Shown: one piece after another, positions 46,815 to 63,381 of the stretch | How the letters are laid out: each line of letters starts with the position of its first letter | Position numbering within the stretch: the stretch's first letter is position 1 | Assembly: GCA_913056395.1 (NCBI GenBank) | Contig: CAJXMG010000003.1 | Coordinates: forward strand, 62,001 to 126,000 | Origin: an uncultured bacterium | Lineage (GTDB): Bacteria; Planctomycetota; UBA8108; UBA1146 | Length of the DNA stretch: 64,000 nucleotides | Direction of reading: 5' to 3' | Position numbers and translations under genes: made by a program | Notes under the pieces: model-generated | The model's database searches: none | Told to the model about the DNA's origin: nothing | The model's input: only the letters and a program-made list of their open reading frames with translations

Positions 46815-47070
46815 GGCGTACTCCTTGCTGAGGGAAATCCGCAAGGGTCCACATTCCCTGCAAAATCACCCTCGGGCAAGACCCACGGTTGGCCGATAAT
46901 TCCTTGCTCCCTCTTCAGTTGGCACCCTCACGAATCTTGCTTCAGGGGGTGCCACCCTGACACCCCTTCAGTTGATCGCCCTCTATCCGGATTTTGCTGA
47001 TTCAATCTTCCCGTGCATAATGATGACGTCGTTGATCCGCGCATACCCTTTATCGAATGAGAGCTCGAAA

Positions 47071-47436
47071 ATGACTTTGAGAATCTGGACAAGAGTCTGT
47101 TTTTTATACGGCTCACTGCTGTTGGCCTGCGGTTGCCAAAGCACCACGATTCACGATCCTGTGGTTTCAAATGAAAACACTCCGGTCCAGAAGTTGGAAG
47201 TGACGGTAGGAAGTCATCTCGAGTTGCGGCTTCCATCTCCTGCGATTGGGCGCTGGTGGACGGTCGCGAAGGGGGCGCGCCCGTGGCTAATTCCGAAAAC
47301 GGAAGCGGATACCGGGCGCATTCTCCTGCATGCCGTTCAGGTGGGATCGACGCGGGTCACTTGCATCCAGCGGGATCGCAACAACTTCGAATACCGCAAG
47401 GTGGTCGTCGACGTCGAGGTCAAACCGGTCTCGTGA
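47071..47436 (+). CDS. Small putative lipoprotein
   Basis: A 121-aa protein from the ATG at 47071. Signal with lipobox-like LLLACGC, then a beta-rich domain (VTVGSHLELRLPSPAIGRWW ... GSTRVTCIQRD). The layout recalls small Ig-like or chagasin-like inhibitor folds, but this is only a shape impression. Longer in-frame starts upstream (46972) lack signal-peptide character. It converges on the candidate selenoprotein gene. Confidence 0.55.
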   Translation: MTLRIWTRVCFLYGSLLLACGCQSTTIHDPVVSNENTPVQKLEVTVGSHLELRLPSPAIGRWWTVAKGARPWLIPKTEADTGRILLHAVQVGSTRVTCIQRDRNNFEYRKVVVDVEVKPVS

Positions 47437-47459: not shown

Positions 47460-48707
47460 TCAGGAACCGGGGGGCAGAATCCAATCTGCGCCATAGACAT
47501 CGACGAAGGCCGGAGGCAGACGGTCCGCAGGTTGATCTCCGGAGAGTTCCATCCACCAGGCGACCCTGGCGGGGTTTGATTCGGTGACCCCGCGGCGACC
47601 ATTGAGTCCGCTGCCTCCCCACACCGTTCCGGTGAGAATGGCATCGAAACGATCAAATCCTTGCTTCGTGGGATTCCAGATTGCAGTACCGTGCATCGTT
47701 GCGTTCACCCCGCGGGTTCTGCTGGGGAAGTGTTTCCAATCGGTTTCACCCAACTTGTAGACCCCATCGCTTTTGGTGACAAAGTCACCGGTAATCAGCA
47801 GGTGAACCTGATCCTTCTCAACACGTTCGACTTCCACTCTGATCTGTGCTTTTTCGATATCCTGGTCAGAGAAAGGGCCTTCCTGGCCGGAGATATTGTC
47901 GACGACGTGGAAGCGTGCGAGACGCAATGCCAATGATTTCGGCAGTTCAGTGGACTCGCCCACTTCCAATTTTCGGGGCAACCATTCGGCCAGTTCTGAA
48001 TCGTGGAACCAGATGTGATCCCGGTTCCAGCGACCTCTCTTATTGGGGTCATCCATTCCTGCAGGAAAATCGCGGGAGGTACTCGTCAGGACCAGACCCT
48101 TGCTGGGGTAAAAAAGTTCCCAGCGGTGTTCCGGGAGGAAGAGTTCCGGCTCTGCTGCTTTTCTTTCTTCTTCAGGAAGGGTTCTCCATGCTTCGAGACC
48201 TTTATCCATCAACTGGAGAGCCTTGTCCGCCTGCAGGGTATTTTGTCGGGCGAGGAGTTTGCCTGAGGGACTGAAGATATAGAGTCCCTGCCAGGAGCCA
48301 CCGATGGGAGTGCGACGACCGGCCACCTGCTGGCGGAAGAATTGGCATTCCCGATCGGGGTGTCGCTGCAAGCGCCAGACCTCATCGGTAGCGGGTACGA
48401 AGTTGCGGGCTTTTTCGACCACCCGTGGGTCATTCCAGACGGACCGCCGGCCCGCCACACCGTTGCCTCACGTACAGCCGAGGGGATGTCCATTCATCAG
48501 CCACAGCAGCATCGGTTTGCCCTCGATGCCTGAGTTCTTCAATCCTTCGTGGAGGCTGGTGTGCCAGGGAATCGTCAACCAGCGATCCTCGACACCGGGG
48601 AGGATCAGTTTTTTCCACTCTTTATGGGTACGCCCCTCAAAGGTGGGCTCTTCCACCACAGCAGGGGAGAGGCAAAGTTGCATGATCAGCAGTGTCAGCA
48701 GGCTCAT
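47460..48707 (-). CDS. Candidate selenoprotein: exported thioredoxin-like protein with Cys-Thr-Sec motif (in-frame TGA at 48468-48470)
   Basis: Two same-frame readings join through one TGA into a 415-aa protein. The first part starts at ATG 48707 with GGAGG 5 nt upstream and a signal peptide (LLTLLIMQLCLS). It leads into a thioredoxin-like strand, KPMLLWLMNGHPLGCT; the next codon is TGA (position 80), then GNGVAGRRSVWNDPRV continues without break for 335 codons to the stop at 47460. C78-T79-U80 would sit where thioredoxins have their active-site Cys pair. An 8-bp hairpin begins at the right distance after the TGA (separate entry). I know no named family. The alternative is a nonsense mutation, but both halves look under normal coding constraint. 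Confidence 0.7.
48438..48467 (-). promoter_or_regulatory. SECIS-like hairpin after the in-frame TGA
   Basis: On the minus strand, GGCGGGCC (48456 to 48449) pairs with GGTCCGTC (48445 to 48438) over 8 bp, two of them G-U, closing a GGC loop. The loop begins 19 nt after the TGA and starts with G. Bacterial SECIS elements need a stem with a G-containing small loop roughly 16-37 nt after UGA (recalled from published descriptions). Confidence 0.6.
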
Positions 48708-48805
48708 CGTTCCTCCAGGCCTCCATCGTGCCAGCAGATCCGGTCTTTTGCCAGCGGGCTTCGGTTATGATTTGCGACGGATGTCAGCATTGGGAGGAGC
48801 CAGAA

Positions 48806-58877: not shown

Positions 58878-60620
58878 ATGAAATCACAGGTAGAGGTTCA
58901 GGATCCGATCACCGATCGCATTCTCGACGAATGGCTCGATGAGCCGGCCCCGTTCCTGTCGATTATCCATGCGATTCAGGATCATTATGGCTATCTGCCG
59001 GAGCCTGCCCTGAGGCGTGTCAGTCAGCGGATGGATATCCCCATCAGTGATCTCTACGGCACCGTCACTTTTTACCACTTCTTCCAGCTGGAGCCGAAGG
59101 CAACCCCGGATATCCGCGTCTGCGAAAACTCGGCGTGTTGCCTCCATGACCTCGATCAGCTCTGTGAAGAGGTCGCCGGTGCTGATCTGGGAATTGAGCA
59201 CTCCGGCAAGATCGAGAAGATCTCTTGCCCTGGTCGATGTGATGTTCCAGTTCCTCTGTTGATCGGTGAGAAGTTCCTCCATGGGGCCAAACCCGGTGCC
59301 ATCGGTGAAGCGGTGGAGGCGACGATGCCCCTGCCACCGGAGACGGGGCAACAGGAATGCCTCTTCCGGCACATTCGCGATGGAGTCTCTGATTTGGCGA
59401 TTGCCATCGAGAAGGGTGCATGGAAATCCCCTCTGCTGGCGGCGTCTGACCCTGAAAAACTGATCAGCGAATTGAAGACCAGTGGTCTGACCGGACGCGG
59501 CGGTGCGGGATTCCCCACCGGTGTGAAGTGGGAAGTGGTTCGCAATGAGAATCGCGGCCCGAAATGGATCATCTGTAATGCAGACGAGAGTGAAGTCGGT
59601 TGCTTCAAAGACAGAGTGCTGATGGCGCATACGCCTCACGCCCTGCTTGAAGGGATGACCTGTGCGGGTCTGGTGACCGGTGCAGAAGTGGGGATCATTT
59701 ACCTGCGCTGGGAATACCCGGAGATTCTCGAGTCTTTGCAAGCCGCCATCGATGAAGCAACGGCGGCGGGATACCTCGGGGAGGATGCCTGCGGCAGTGG
59801 TCGACCCTTCCGCATCGTCATTCGTCGCGGAGCGGGAGCCTACATCTGCGGTGAAGAGACCTCGCTTCTCAACTCCCTCGAAGGGAAGCACCCTTTCCCC
59901 AGAGAGAAGCCGCCTTTCCCGACGACCCATGGTCTCTTCCAGCAACCCACCATCGTCAACAACGTGGAAACATTCTGTGCGGTGCCTCCCATCGTGGAGC
60001 ATGGAGGGCAGTGGTTCAGTGACCTCGGCCTCGGCGAGCAGAATGGCATGCGCATCTTCAGTGTTTCCGGAGACATTCAGCGTCCAGGGAACTACGAGGT
60101 TCCGGTGGGGACTCCCCTGCGCCAGCTCCTCGTCGAGTTTGCCGGTGGTCCGCTTCCAGGTCGGGATATTCAGGGCGTGACGATGGCCGGGGTCAGTGGA
60201 GGTCTCGTGGGAGCAGAGGATCTGGATGTCCGTCTGGACCCCGCTTCTCTCGATGGATTGGGCGCGATGCTCGGTGCCGGAGGGATCGTGGTTCATGACG
60301 ACACCCGCTGCATGATCAAGGCCGCCAGAGAAAGCATGCACTTCCTGAAAGAAGAATCCTGCGGCAAGTGTTTCCCATGCAGGATTGGCACGACGCGCAT
60401 GACCGAGATCCTCGATGAACTCGGATCAGGGCAGCCGGTACGCGAGGGGATCATGGAAGAGATCGAGGATCTGGAAGAAGTGTTGGGTGAGACCAGTGCC
60501 TGTGGATTGGGTCTGGCCGCTCCTTACATCACCCGCATGCTGAAAAAGTATTGGCCTGATCAGATCCAGCAGAAATTGAATGGCAGCACGCAAGCCTCAG
60601 AAGGGGCCGATGATGAGTAA
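58878..60620 (+). CDS. NAD-linked formate dehydrogenase diaphorase subunit (NuoE-NuoF fusion)
   Basis: A 580-aa fusion. Residues 1-150 are a NuoE-like [2Fe-2S] domain (VTFYHFFQLEP, Cys in CENSACC and SCPGRC). Residues about 165-570 are a NuoF-like flavoprotein with the FMN site (GLTGRGGAGFPTGVKW), NADH site (GAGAYICGEETSLLNSLEG) and the [4Fe-4S] Cys (ESCGKCFPCRIGT, TSACGLG). It should pass electrons between NAD(H) and the catalytic subunit encoded next. The 3' end overlaps the catalytic gene by 8 bp, so the two are coupled. The two functions are usually separate genes in NAD-linked formate dehydrogenases. Confidence 0.93.
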   Translation: MKSQVEVQDPITDRILDEWLDEPAPFLSIIHAIQDHYGYLPEPALRRVSQRMDIPISDLYGTVTFYHFFQLEPKATPDIRVCENSACCLHDLDQLCEEVAGADLGIEHSGKIEKISCPGRCDVPVPLLIGEKFLHGAKPGAIGEAVEATMPLPPETGQQECLFRHIRDGVSDLAIAIEKGAWKSPLLAASDPEKLISELKTSGLTGRGGAGFPTGVKWEVVRNENRGPKWIICNADESEVGCFKDRVLMAHTPHALLEGMTCAGLVTGAEVGIIYLRWEYPEILESLQAAIDEATAAGYLGEDACGSGRPFRIVIRRGAGAYICGEETSLLNSLEGKHPFPREKPPFPTTHGLFQQPTIVNNVETFCAVPPIVEHGGQWFSDLGLGEQNGMRIFSVSGDIQRPGNYEVPVGTPLRQLLVEFAGGPLPGRDIQGVTMAGVSGGLVGAEDLDVRLDPASLDGLGAMLGAGGIVVHDDTRCMIKAARESMHFLKEESCGKCFPCRIGTTRMTEILDELGSGQPVREGIMEEIEDLEEVLGETSACGLGLAAPYITRMLKKYWPDQIQQKLNGSTQASEGADDE

Positions 60621-63381
60621 CGAAAACAGGATGACCATCGATGGTGCGGAAGTAACCTTCCAGCCGGGTGAGACCGTCCTTGAGGTCGCCCGTCGTCAGG
60701 GAGCCTTTGTTCCGACCCTCTGTTATGACGAGAGACTGGATCCCTACGGATCATGCCGCTTGTGTGTGGTAGAGGTCGAAGGGCGACGTTTGCCCGCTTC
60801 CTCCTGCACTCTCAAGGCAGAGCCAGGAATGGAAATCCGTACCGGCAGCGATCCGATTCGCAAAATGCAGTCGACGCTGATGGAGATGGTGCTCTCGGAA
60901 AATCCGGATGACGAATGTCCCCGTTGTCGTGACATCGGTACCTGTGAAGTCCACGACTTGGCTGAAAAGCTGGAGGTGGGCCGCGAGCGTTTCCTGGGCG
61001 CTACCAGCAATGCCTCCAAAGATGATTCAAACCCATTCCTTTTACGCGATTACGATCGCTGCATCTCCTGTTATCGCTGTGTTCGCATCTGCGATGAAGT
61101 GGAAGCGGACCACGCCATTACCATGACTGGTCGTGGCTGGAACAAGGGCATCGCCACCGCATTTGACGGCGGCTTGATGGACAGCGATTGCACCCTTTGC
61201 GGCCAGTGCATCTACACCTGTCCGACCGGTGCGTTGGCAGACAAGAAGATGGTGGGTCAGGGAGAGATCCCTGGCGAGGTGGAAGTCACTCGCAGTGTCT
61301 GTCCCTACTGTGGAACCGGTTGCTCCATCAATCTCCACAGTCGTGACGGCAAAATGATCGGTGTGACTCCGGTCCTCGACGGGCCCGTCAACGAAGGAGC
61401 GCTCTGCGTCAAAGGTCAATTCGGGTTTGATTTCGTCAACTCGGGAGATCGATTGACGAGACCGTTGATTCGCAAGAATGGTGAGTTGACTCCCGTCTCA
61501 TGGGATGAGGCTTTCGATTACACCGCCCAGAAATTGATGAGTGTGCGAGCGGATCATGGACCGAAGGCATTCTATGCCATCGCCAGCGGACGTGCTCCCG
61601 GTGAAGGTTCCTACATGCTGCAGAAGTTCACCAGGGCGGTCATGAATTCGAATCAGGTCGACAACTGTTCGCGTGGCTGACACAGTCCTACTGTCGCCGG
61701 TCTGGCGGCTTCCATTGGACGCGGAGCCATGTCGAACTCGATCCCGGAGATCGAAGACGCAAAGATGATGCTGTGTGTGGGCACCAATATGACCGAGTGC
61801 CACCCCATCATCGCCGTGCGTGTGAAAAAAGCGGTACGTAAAGGAGCCAAGCTCTACGTGGTAGATCCCCGGAAGATTCCGCTGACGGAATACGCCGATG
61901 GTCATCTGCCCTTGAAGCTCGGTTCTGACGTAGCCCTCTTCAATGCCATGGCCAAGGTCATCATCGATGAAGGCCTCGAGGACAAGGAATACATCAAAGA
62001 GCGGGTTGAGGGTTTCGAGGAGTTGAAGGCGCATCTTCAGCCCTTCACCCTGGAGTACGCCGAAGAGATTTCCGGCGTTCCTGCTGAGTTGATTCGCGAG
62101 TGTGCCATCGAGTACGCCAAAGCGGAGAGTGCGGGCATTTACTACACGTTGGGAATCACCGAGCACATCTGTGGTGTAAGTAACGTTCAGAGTCTGTGCA
62201 ATCTGGCGCTGATCACCGGGAACCTCGGTAAAAAGTCGGCAGGGGTTAATCCGCTGCGAGGACAGAACAACATTCAGGGTGCCGGCGACTGCGGTGCATT
62301 GCCGAATAATTATCCCGGCTTCCAGTCCGTGGAAGATCCCGCCTGCCAGGAGAAATTCGAGAAGGCGTGGGGCGTGCCGATGGATCCCAAGAAAGGGATC
62401 ACCAAGATTGCCGCTCTCGATCATGCCGTCGATGGACGGATCAAGGCGATGTGGATCTGCGGGGAGAACACCCTGGTCACCGACCCGGATGTCAAACACA
62501 CCACCAAGGCACTGGAGTCGCTGGATTTCCTCGTCGTGCAGGACATGTTCCTCACCGACACCGCCAAGCTGGCTGACGTGGTCTTCCCCGCCGCTGCTTT
62601 CACCGAGGTTGATGGTTTCTTCACCAACTCTGATCGTCGGGTACAGCGAATTCGCAAGGCCGCCAATCCTCCCGGTGAGGCGAAGCCGGACTGGTGGATC
62701 ATCTCGCAGGTCGCTCAGCGCATGGAGACCCCTGTCGATTTTGAATACCAGAGCAGTGAAGAAGTCTTCGATGAGTTGGCGGCTCTCTCGCCCATTTACG
62801 CTGGACTGACTTACGATCGTATCGAGAAGGGTGATCTTTCCTGGCCTGTTCCCGACAAGGATCACCCGGGAACCCCCGTTCTTCACGAAGGGGAATTCCT
62901 CAACGGCAAAGGCAAATTGCAGTTGCTCGATTACGTGCCCCCTTCAGAGAATCCGGATGAAGAGTATCCCTTCTACCTGACGACGGGGCGTCGATTGCCG
63001 ACGTACCACAGCAACACCATGACCGGCCGCTCCGGTGGGTTCCGGATTCTGGTTCCCAATGAATGGCTGGAAATTCATCCCGCCGATTCCGATCGCCTTG
63101 GACTGGTCGATGGAGACTGGGCACGCATCAAATCCAGAAGGGGAGAGGTGATCACCCGCGTGGCGGTGACTCGCACCTCACCCCGGGGAACCGTGTTCAT
63201 GAGCTTTGCTTTCCCTGAAGAGGTGATGACCAACTTCGTCACCAATCCGGAAGTGGACCCGCGCACAGAGACCCCCGAGTTCAAAGTGGCTGCGGTTTCC
63301 ATCGAGCGGGTGGAAGCACCATCCGGATTGGGTGCTGAACAGGCATTGAGAGCGGATCCCGAAGGGCCAGGCCTTGTCTGA
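60613..63381 (+). CDS. fdhA: Formate dehydrogenase catalytic subunit, selenoprotein (Sec at TGA 61678-61680)
   Basis: Read through one TGA this is a 922-aa NuoG-type molybdopterin enzyme. The start at 60613 has GGGG 6 nt upstream; ATG 60610 is equivalent. Order: [2Fe-2S] domain (CYDERLDPYGSCRLC), His/Cys cluster region (CPRCRDIGTCEVHDL), two [4Fe-4S] (CISCYRCVRIC, CTLCGQCIYTCP), the [4Fe-4S] of the catalytic core (CPYCGTGCSI), then the active site QVDNCSRG-U-HSPTVAGLAAS, with Sec at residue 356 followed by the conserved His, and a C-terminal molybdopterin dinucleotide-binding domain (LTTGRRLPTYHSNTMTGR). The TGA sits exactly where formate dehydrogenases have Sec or Cys. Oxidises formate to CO2, or the reverse. 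Confidence 0.95.
61685..61720 (+). promoter_or_regulatory. SECIS element of fdhA
   Basis: After the TGA, CGCC (61695-61698) and GGCG (61704-61707) close a GGTCT loop that starts exactly 18 nt after the TGA; GTCC (61685-61688) and GGAC (61717-61720) can form a lower stem. Loop sequence and distance equal those I recall for E. coli fdhF, which SelB recognises. Confidence 0.85.

Follow-up and report, generated by a model that had tools for sequence, protein, structure and literature searches.

A probable undescribed family of exported two-domain selenoproteins in Planctomycetota

Results

Gene structure and genomic context

The window, by which we mean the whole stretch of 64,000 nucleotides analysed, contains a gene that starts with an ATG at position 48707, ends with a TGA at 47460-47462 and is split by a single internal in-frame TGA into 79 codons on the 5' and 335 codons on the 3' side (Table 1). 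The initial annotation, which left the strand unstated, had placed this TGA within HPLGCT-TGA-GNGV, and translation of the minus strand from 48707 to 47460, giving MSLLTLLIMQLCLSPAVVEEP...MLLWLMNGHPLGCT-TGA-GNGVAGRRSVWNDPRVV..., reproduces both the motif and the 335 codons following it. The ribosome-binding site and signal peptide proposed at the same time are likewise present by eye, as a GGAGG and a hydrophobic N-terminus. The gene stands alone, with a divergent cupin gene as its 5' neighbour (48692/48806-49168, plus strand) and a short, convergent 3' neighbour (46972-47436, plus strand). The conserved C-terminal part of about 220 residues matches no Pfam or NCBIfam model and is probably a beta-rich domain of no known family. 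In two other members (L020 and L021), a lipobox can be read by eye at the N-terminus (...LVGC and ...LAGC, respectively), so that some members may be lipoproteins instead of being exported in soluble form.

Table 1. Coordinates of the features at the locus, elsewhere in the host genome and in related genomes.
Feature	Position	Strand	Basis or remark
Selenoprotein gene	47460..48707	minus	415 codons plus terminal TGA; codon-80 TGA inferred to be read as Sec
Internal in-frame TGA, residue 80, HPLGCT-U-GNGV	48468..48470	minus	TGA here in 96/104 aligned members
Shine-Dalgarno GGAGG	48712..48716	minus	4 nt 5' of ATG; read by eye
Hydrophobic signal peptide, ~residues 1-18	48654..48707	minus	By eye, no signal-peptide program
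Putative thioredoxin-fold domain, ~residues 45-182, with C78 and Sec80	48162..48575	minus	Weak profile matches to PF13899/PF03190; weak matches to PDB 3f9u, AGR2/AGR3 and 3ira; helix/strand order in low-confidence model
Probable C-terminal beta-rich domain, ~residues 190-415	47463..48140	minus	Family conservation; strands in low-confidence model
Bacterial-SECIS-type hairpin, GGCGGGCC-GGC-GGTCCGTC	48438..48456	minus	Folding and covariation
NAD-type formate dehydrogenase alpha, Sec-containing	60580-63378, TGA 61678-61680	plus	TIGR01591, 808 bits
selA, Sec-containing SelD and tRNA-Sec cluster	L054 3000-5739 (G000:C5:60000-66000)	minus	Host genome
Thioredoxin_7-type protein, in-frame TGA, HAPGULGCKRLD (UxxC)	L144, G000:C2:85699-85953		Host genome
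Thioredoxin_7-type protein, in-frame TGA, SYAPUPPCTALE (UxxC)	L146, G000:C15:25231-25497		Host genome
Conserved upstream gene without Pfam match	L126 1958-3481; L139 4437-6110; L140 7448-9154		One planctomycete family

Conservation across the internal TGA

Between close relatives, the sequence following the TGA evolves with a dN/dS of 0.07-0.11, indicating strong purifying selection, and homology runs uninterrupted across codon 80 down to about 27% identity. TGA occupies exactly this codon in relatives from many independent assemblies. A sequencing error, which had been named as a possible refutation, is excluded because the identical TGA recurs in dozens of independent genomes; a pseudogene was likewise considered and rejected. 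TGA is also the gene's own terminator, so there is no global change of the code, and the recoding is local.

Distribution of the family and the residue at codon 80

The family was detected in 109 of 392 evenly sampled Planctomycetota genomes and in 29 of 59 relatives. Among the 104 alignable members, 96 have TGA at codon 80, while the other eight encode Ser (six; TCA, TCG, TCC or AGC), Asp (one; GAC) or Pro (one; CCC). Cys was found in none of the 104, nor was TAA or TAG, leaving TGA as the sole stop codon seen at the site. The expectation that homologues would carry Cys or Sec at residue 80 therefore held for Sec only. Since the 104 loci include near-copies, a deduplicated set of 68 TGA and eight non-TGA members was used where indicated. 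At the codon level, the pattern GHPLGCT-TGA-(N/G)NG has matches in 71 of the 392 genomes. With a Cys codon in place of the TGA it matches no genome, and a reversed-pattern control gave no matches either. Family relatives were also absent from the viral contigs and plasmids searched.

TGA members occur all over a 66-sequence tree, and the non-TGA forms sit among them at four points, corresponding to four separate changes, so that Sec is the older state within the sampled set. Because the sample comprises Planctomycetota only, Cys forms in other phyla are not excluded. Two loci contain neighbouring pairs of family genes, one with Sec and Ser (L087, G133:C37:8000-12700) and one with Sec and Asp at the site (L091, G181:C321:4400-12000); the non-Sec copies of these pairs may be redox-dead partners.

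A conserved SECIS-type hairpin follows the TGA

The suspected hairpin with a G-starting loop 3' of the TGA is real and covaries in the family. In the window it consists of an 8-bp stem and the 3-nt loop GGC, with 19 nt from TGA to loop and a folding energy of -11.6 kcal/mol, and it satisfies every criterion of a published bSECIS model (loop of 3-9 nt with a G within its first two positions, stem of 4-16 bp, 16-37 nt from the UGA, at most -7.5 kcal/mol; PMC13188914). Of the 68 distinct TGA members, 57 keep at least five of six hairpin pairs in two fixed registers; in 200 synonymous shuffles this number averages 22.3 and never exceeds 33. The best G-loop hairpin of the 68 members averages -7.8 kcal/mol versus -3.6 kcal/mol in synonymous shuffles. 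Seven control offsets showed no clear hairpin excess. At least five of six pairs are formed by 44 sequences in register 42 and by one and three sequences in registers 41 and 43, respectively.

Compensatory changes are seen at pairs 14-28 (CG/TA), 15-27 (GC/CG/TA) and 17-25 (AT/GT/CG/GC/TA), the covarying positions 15 and 27 both being third codon positions. Pair 18-24 is invariably C-G in the main register, although both of its positions are third codon positions as well. None of the eight non-TGA members keeps five or more of the six pairs. The hairpin is not universal, with 11 of the 68 TGA members lacking it in the two registers tested; under a stricter perfect-stem energy limit, 38 of the 68 pass, as does a hairpin of some kind in one non-TGA member. 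Total folding energy 3' of the TGA is not below that of shuffled sequences (z -0.04; mean z -0.24 versus synonymous shuffles), and the signal is therefore a specific local hairpin. As the members are related, p-values are guides only, and the stronger argument for the hairpin comes from the synonymous shuffles and the control offsets.

The host and most family-positive genomes encode the Sec machinery

The inference that the host decodes UGA as Sec is borne out by its genome, which encodes tRNA-Sec (anticodon TCA), selA, selB and selD. SelD is itself of the Sec type, with an in-frame TGA in SCAGUAAKLSPG, and selB sits on a contig apart from the cluster of the other three genes (Table 1). The Sec-containing formate dehydrogenase reported earlier for the window was also recovered; its alpha subunit, with an in-frame TGA in ...CSRGUHSPTVAGLA, is the window's second selenoprotein. 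Two Thioredoxin_7-type proteins with in-frame TGA codons are likely further selenoproteins of the host (L144 and L146, Table 1). A related group encountered in other genomes has in-frame TGA codons in HCULGG, ECULGG, FAULGG and GHCUATA sites (L148, L150, L154 and L162; G247 and G082). It also includes what may be a Cys form, GLTCLGARITRG, from a genome lacking selA (L149, G355), and perhaps represents further undescribed selenoprotein families.

Across the phylum, selB at cut-off strength is found in 99 of the 109 family-positive genomes versus 135 of the 283 others (Fisher p=1e-16, relatedness uncorrected). The ten family-positive genomes without selB were picked out manually from the tables. 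Six of them are drafts with selA and selD, and selB is therefore probably missing from the assembly. Three (G121, G193 and G304) have only Ser or Pro forms and no selA, selB or selD over the cut-off, and the tenth (G355) has no more than a remote relative with Cys. Two further genomes (G315 and G374) carry Ser forms, yet retain the Sec machinery.

A putative thioredoxin-fold active site with Sec in place of the first cysteine

At E<=1, the window protein matches no Pfam or NCBIfam model. Weak matches to Thioredoxin_7 (PF13899) were obtained for 12 of 44 members (best E 1.4e-5) and to DUF255 (PF03190) for five of the 44; the curated PF13899 cut-off of 27 bits is unmet, the members listed individually scoring 13-15 bits. 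A sequence search of the PDB with a close-family profile gave no match, and a wide profile gave weak matches to 3f9u, AGR2/AGR3 and 3ira (E 0.014 to 1.3), all of which we take to be thioredoxin-fold proteins. AlphaFold models, computed with six sequences, were poor (pLDDT 57 and 44), and a Foldseek search of the PDB with the first, low-confidence model returned nothing significant, the best thioredoxin-fold match being AGR2 with E=0.12. Thus, the assignment of the N-terminal domain to a thioredoxin fold of the Thioredoxin_7/DUF255/AGR2 type is an inference from weak sequence matches.

Within these limits, the proposal that the TGA lies at a thioredoxin-fold active site is supported by the profile alignments, in which Sec takes the position of the first CxxC cysteine of 3f9u, DUF255 and DsbD-like relatives (TGYGCVNC, TGKWCSPC and CHWC). 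The usual second Cys is Gly in the family (UxxG), so that neither CxxC nor UxxC of the PF13899 type is present, and a five-residue insertion, the HPLG region, places a Cys at position -2 from Sec. A Cys at -1 or -2 is found in 58 of the 68 Sec forms versus none of the eight non-Sec forms (Fisher p 2e-6). Cys and Sec are thus lost together, an indication that they act jointly; since ten of the 68 Sec forms have no Cys at -1 or -2, such a partner role cannot be universal.

Comparison with known thioredoxin-like and CxU proteins

Around the active site, the elements follow one another as in Thioredoxin_7 (PF13899), Thioredox_DsbH DUF255 (PF03190) and AGR2/AGR3, and the distance between Sec and the W[TN]DP.V segment after it is, without gaps, that of PDB 3f9u (CVNCRKMELAVWTDPKV). 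Unlike the former three, the family has Gly as the second Cys, an extra HPLG-Cys-Thr before Sec and an added C-terminal beta-rich domain. With the VPGUxxT (NF041383) and Trx7/PDZ (NF041199) selenoproteins, it shares the broad thioredoxin-like fold group but differs from them in motifs and C-terminal domains. Membership in either was rejected, with scores of at most 13.8 bits among the members listed individually against a cut-off of 275 for VPGUxxT, and of 11.5 bits in one member against a cut-off of 300 for Trx7/PDZ.

The CxU spacing is shared with the Sec.1 thioredoxin-like family (PF13192) and the UshA-like, FTR and rhodanese form 3 families, which are separate Pfam/NCBIfam families (PMC13188914) and whose profiles match no members of the family described here. 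GOS_B and GOS_C are, like the present family, marine selenoproteins of no known function (PMC2398784). They have 125 and 312 Cys homologues, respectively, and the GOS_C motif is UxxC (PMC2398784). Assignment to GOS_B was rejected; the family has no NCBIfam match.

Discussion

We interpret the gene as a representative of an undescribed, exported, two-domain family of Sec-containing proteins, with a probability of roughly 0.9. The recoding, the SECIS element, the machinery, the selection and the family itself are supported at the level of sequence. The decoding of the codon-80 UGA as Sec is near certain, although there is no direct proof of selenium incorporation. According to our proposal, SelA, SelB, SelD and tRNA-Sec of the host would read this UGA as Sec, directed by the SECIS hairpin at nucleotides 12-30 past the UGA. 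Sec80 would occupy the place of the attacking first Cys of CxxC, with Gly replacing the second, and Cys78, two residues before it, would most likely resolve the oxidised Sec through an internal Se-S bond. On this view, the protein would be an extracytoplasmic oxidoreductase, of either the thiol/disulfide or the peroxide-reducing kind. The fold, the partner Cys, the reaction and the substrate are inferred, and no activity has been demonstrated; on balance we think a thiol/selenol redox role fairly probable.

The main functional rival holds that Sec is inserted without serving redox chemistry, Cys78 and Sec80 instead forming a periplasmic binding site for a soft metal or metalloid, for example mercury, copper or arsenite. 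A close Cys/Sec pair in an exported protein would fit such binding, similar roles have been proposed for other selenoproteins (PMC13188914), and a scan of neighbourhoods across planctomycete families revealed no conserved adjacent redox-partner gene. Against it, no metal-resistance genes were seen among the neighbours scanned, and Sec occupies the catalytic site of the putative thioredoxin fold, so that we regard metal binding as unlikely but worth keeping in mind. In one planctomycete family, a conserved co-directional gene without Pfam match lies directly 5' of the selenoprotein gene (Table 1), and in another genome a co-directional downstream sulfatase gene has its start within the family gene (L134 6337-8999, G343).

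The family could also be real but already described under another name. Our comparison did not extend to the candidate lists of two planctomycetes (PMC4807772, Table S9) or to the tables of a groundwater MAG survey (cited in PMC13188914), which leaves room for this. It did cover Pfam and NCBIfam (June 2026), of which no model matches the family, and a 2026 inventory of 119 prokaryotic selenoprotein families, which has no entry with this motif or domain (PMC13188914); the string HPLGCT was not found in the literature searched. These searches agree with the earlier statement that no named selenoprotein of this type was known and make a prior description rather improbable. Because there is no catalogue entry, no NCBIfam model and, in the literature searched, no mention of the motif, we consider this a new family among the thioredoxin-like bacterial selenoproteins, its priority not being fully settled as long as the two supplementary candidate lists are not covered.

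Other readings of the codon fare far worse. A near-cognate tRNA or an altered code could insert one of the standard amino acids (Trp, Cys or Ser), and Ser is indeed encoded by six non-TGA members. The terminal TGA of the gene, however, argues against a global code change, the site carries TGA and never TAA or TAG, and both the hairpin, which is lost in non-TGA members, and the tie to selA, selB and selD favour Sec, making this reading very improbable. That the TGA is a true stop followed by a separate gene or decaying remnant, as automated annotation would have it and as a GTG start on the downstream ORF might suggest, is hardly tenable in view of purifying selection on both sides and unbroken homology over the codon in dozens of genomes.

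Within the Sec-containing family, two traits are unusual, the lack of a Cys counterpart and the Cys-x-Sec-x-x-Gly site. Cys homologues exist for almost every selenoprotein, and the methods commonly used for discovery rely on Cys/Sec pairs (PMC13188914). Cys homologues at the Sec site are a usual but not obligatory criterion for bacterial selenoproteins, one that is unmet in our Planctomycetota-only sample. A widespread family without a Cys form would be missed by methods based on Cys/Sec pairs and therefore marks a blind spot in selenoproteome catalogues. We give about even odds to a more far-reaching proposal, namely that the family lacks any Cys counterpart, that Sec is ancestral and retained throughout a phylum, that its replacement by Ser, Asp or Pro went along with loss of the partner Cys and the SECIS element, as if Cys were unable to take its place, and that the site represents a new redox layout with Cys at -2, Sec at the first thioredoxin position and Gly for the second Cys.

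Why some sites retain selenium though cysteine is available is an open question, for which the family offers a natural case, with the independent losses to Ser serving as built-in comparisons. Genes of this family occur in about a quarter of the sampled planctomycete genomes, and annotation would truncate most of these genes at the Sec codon.
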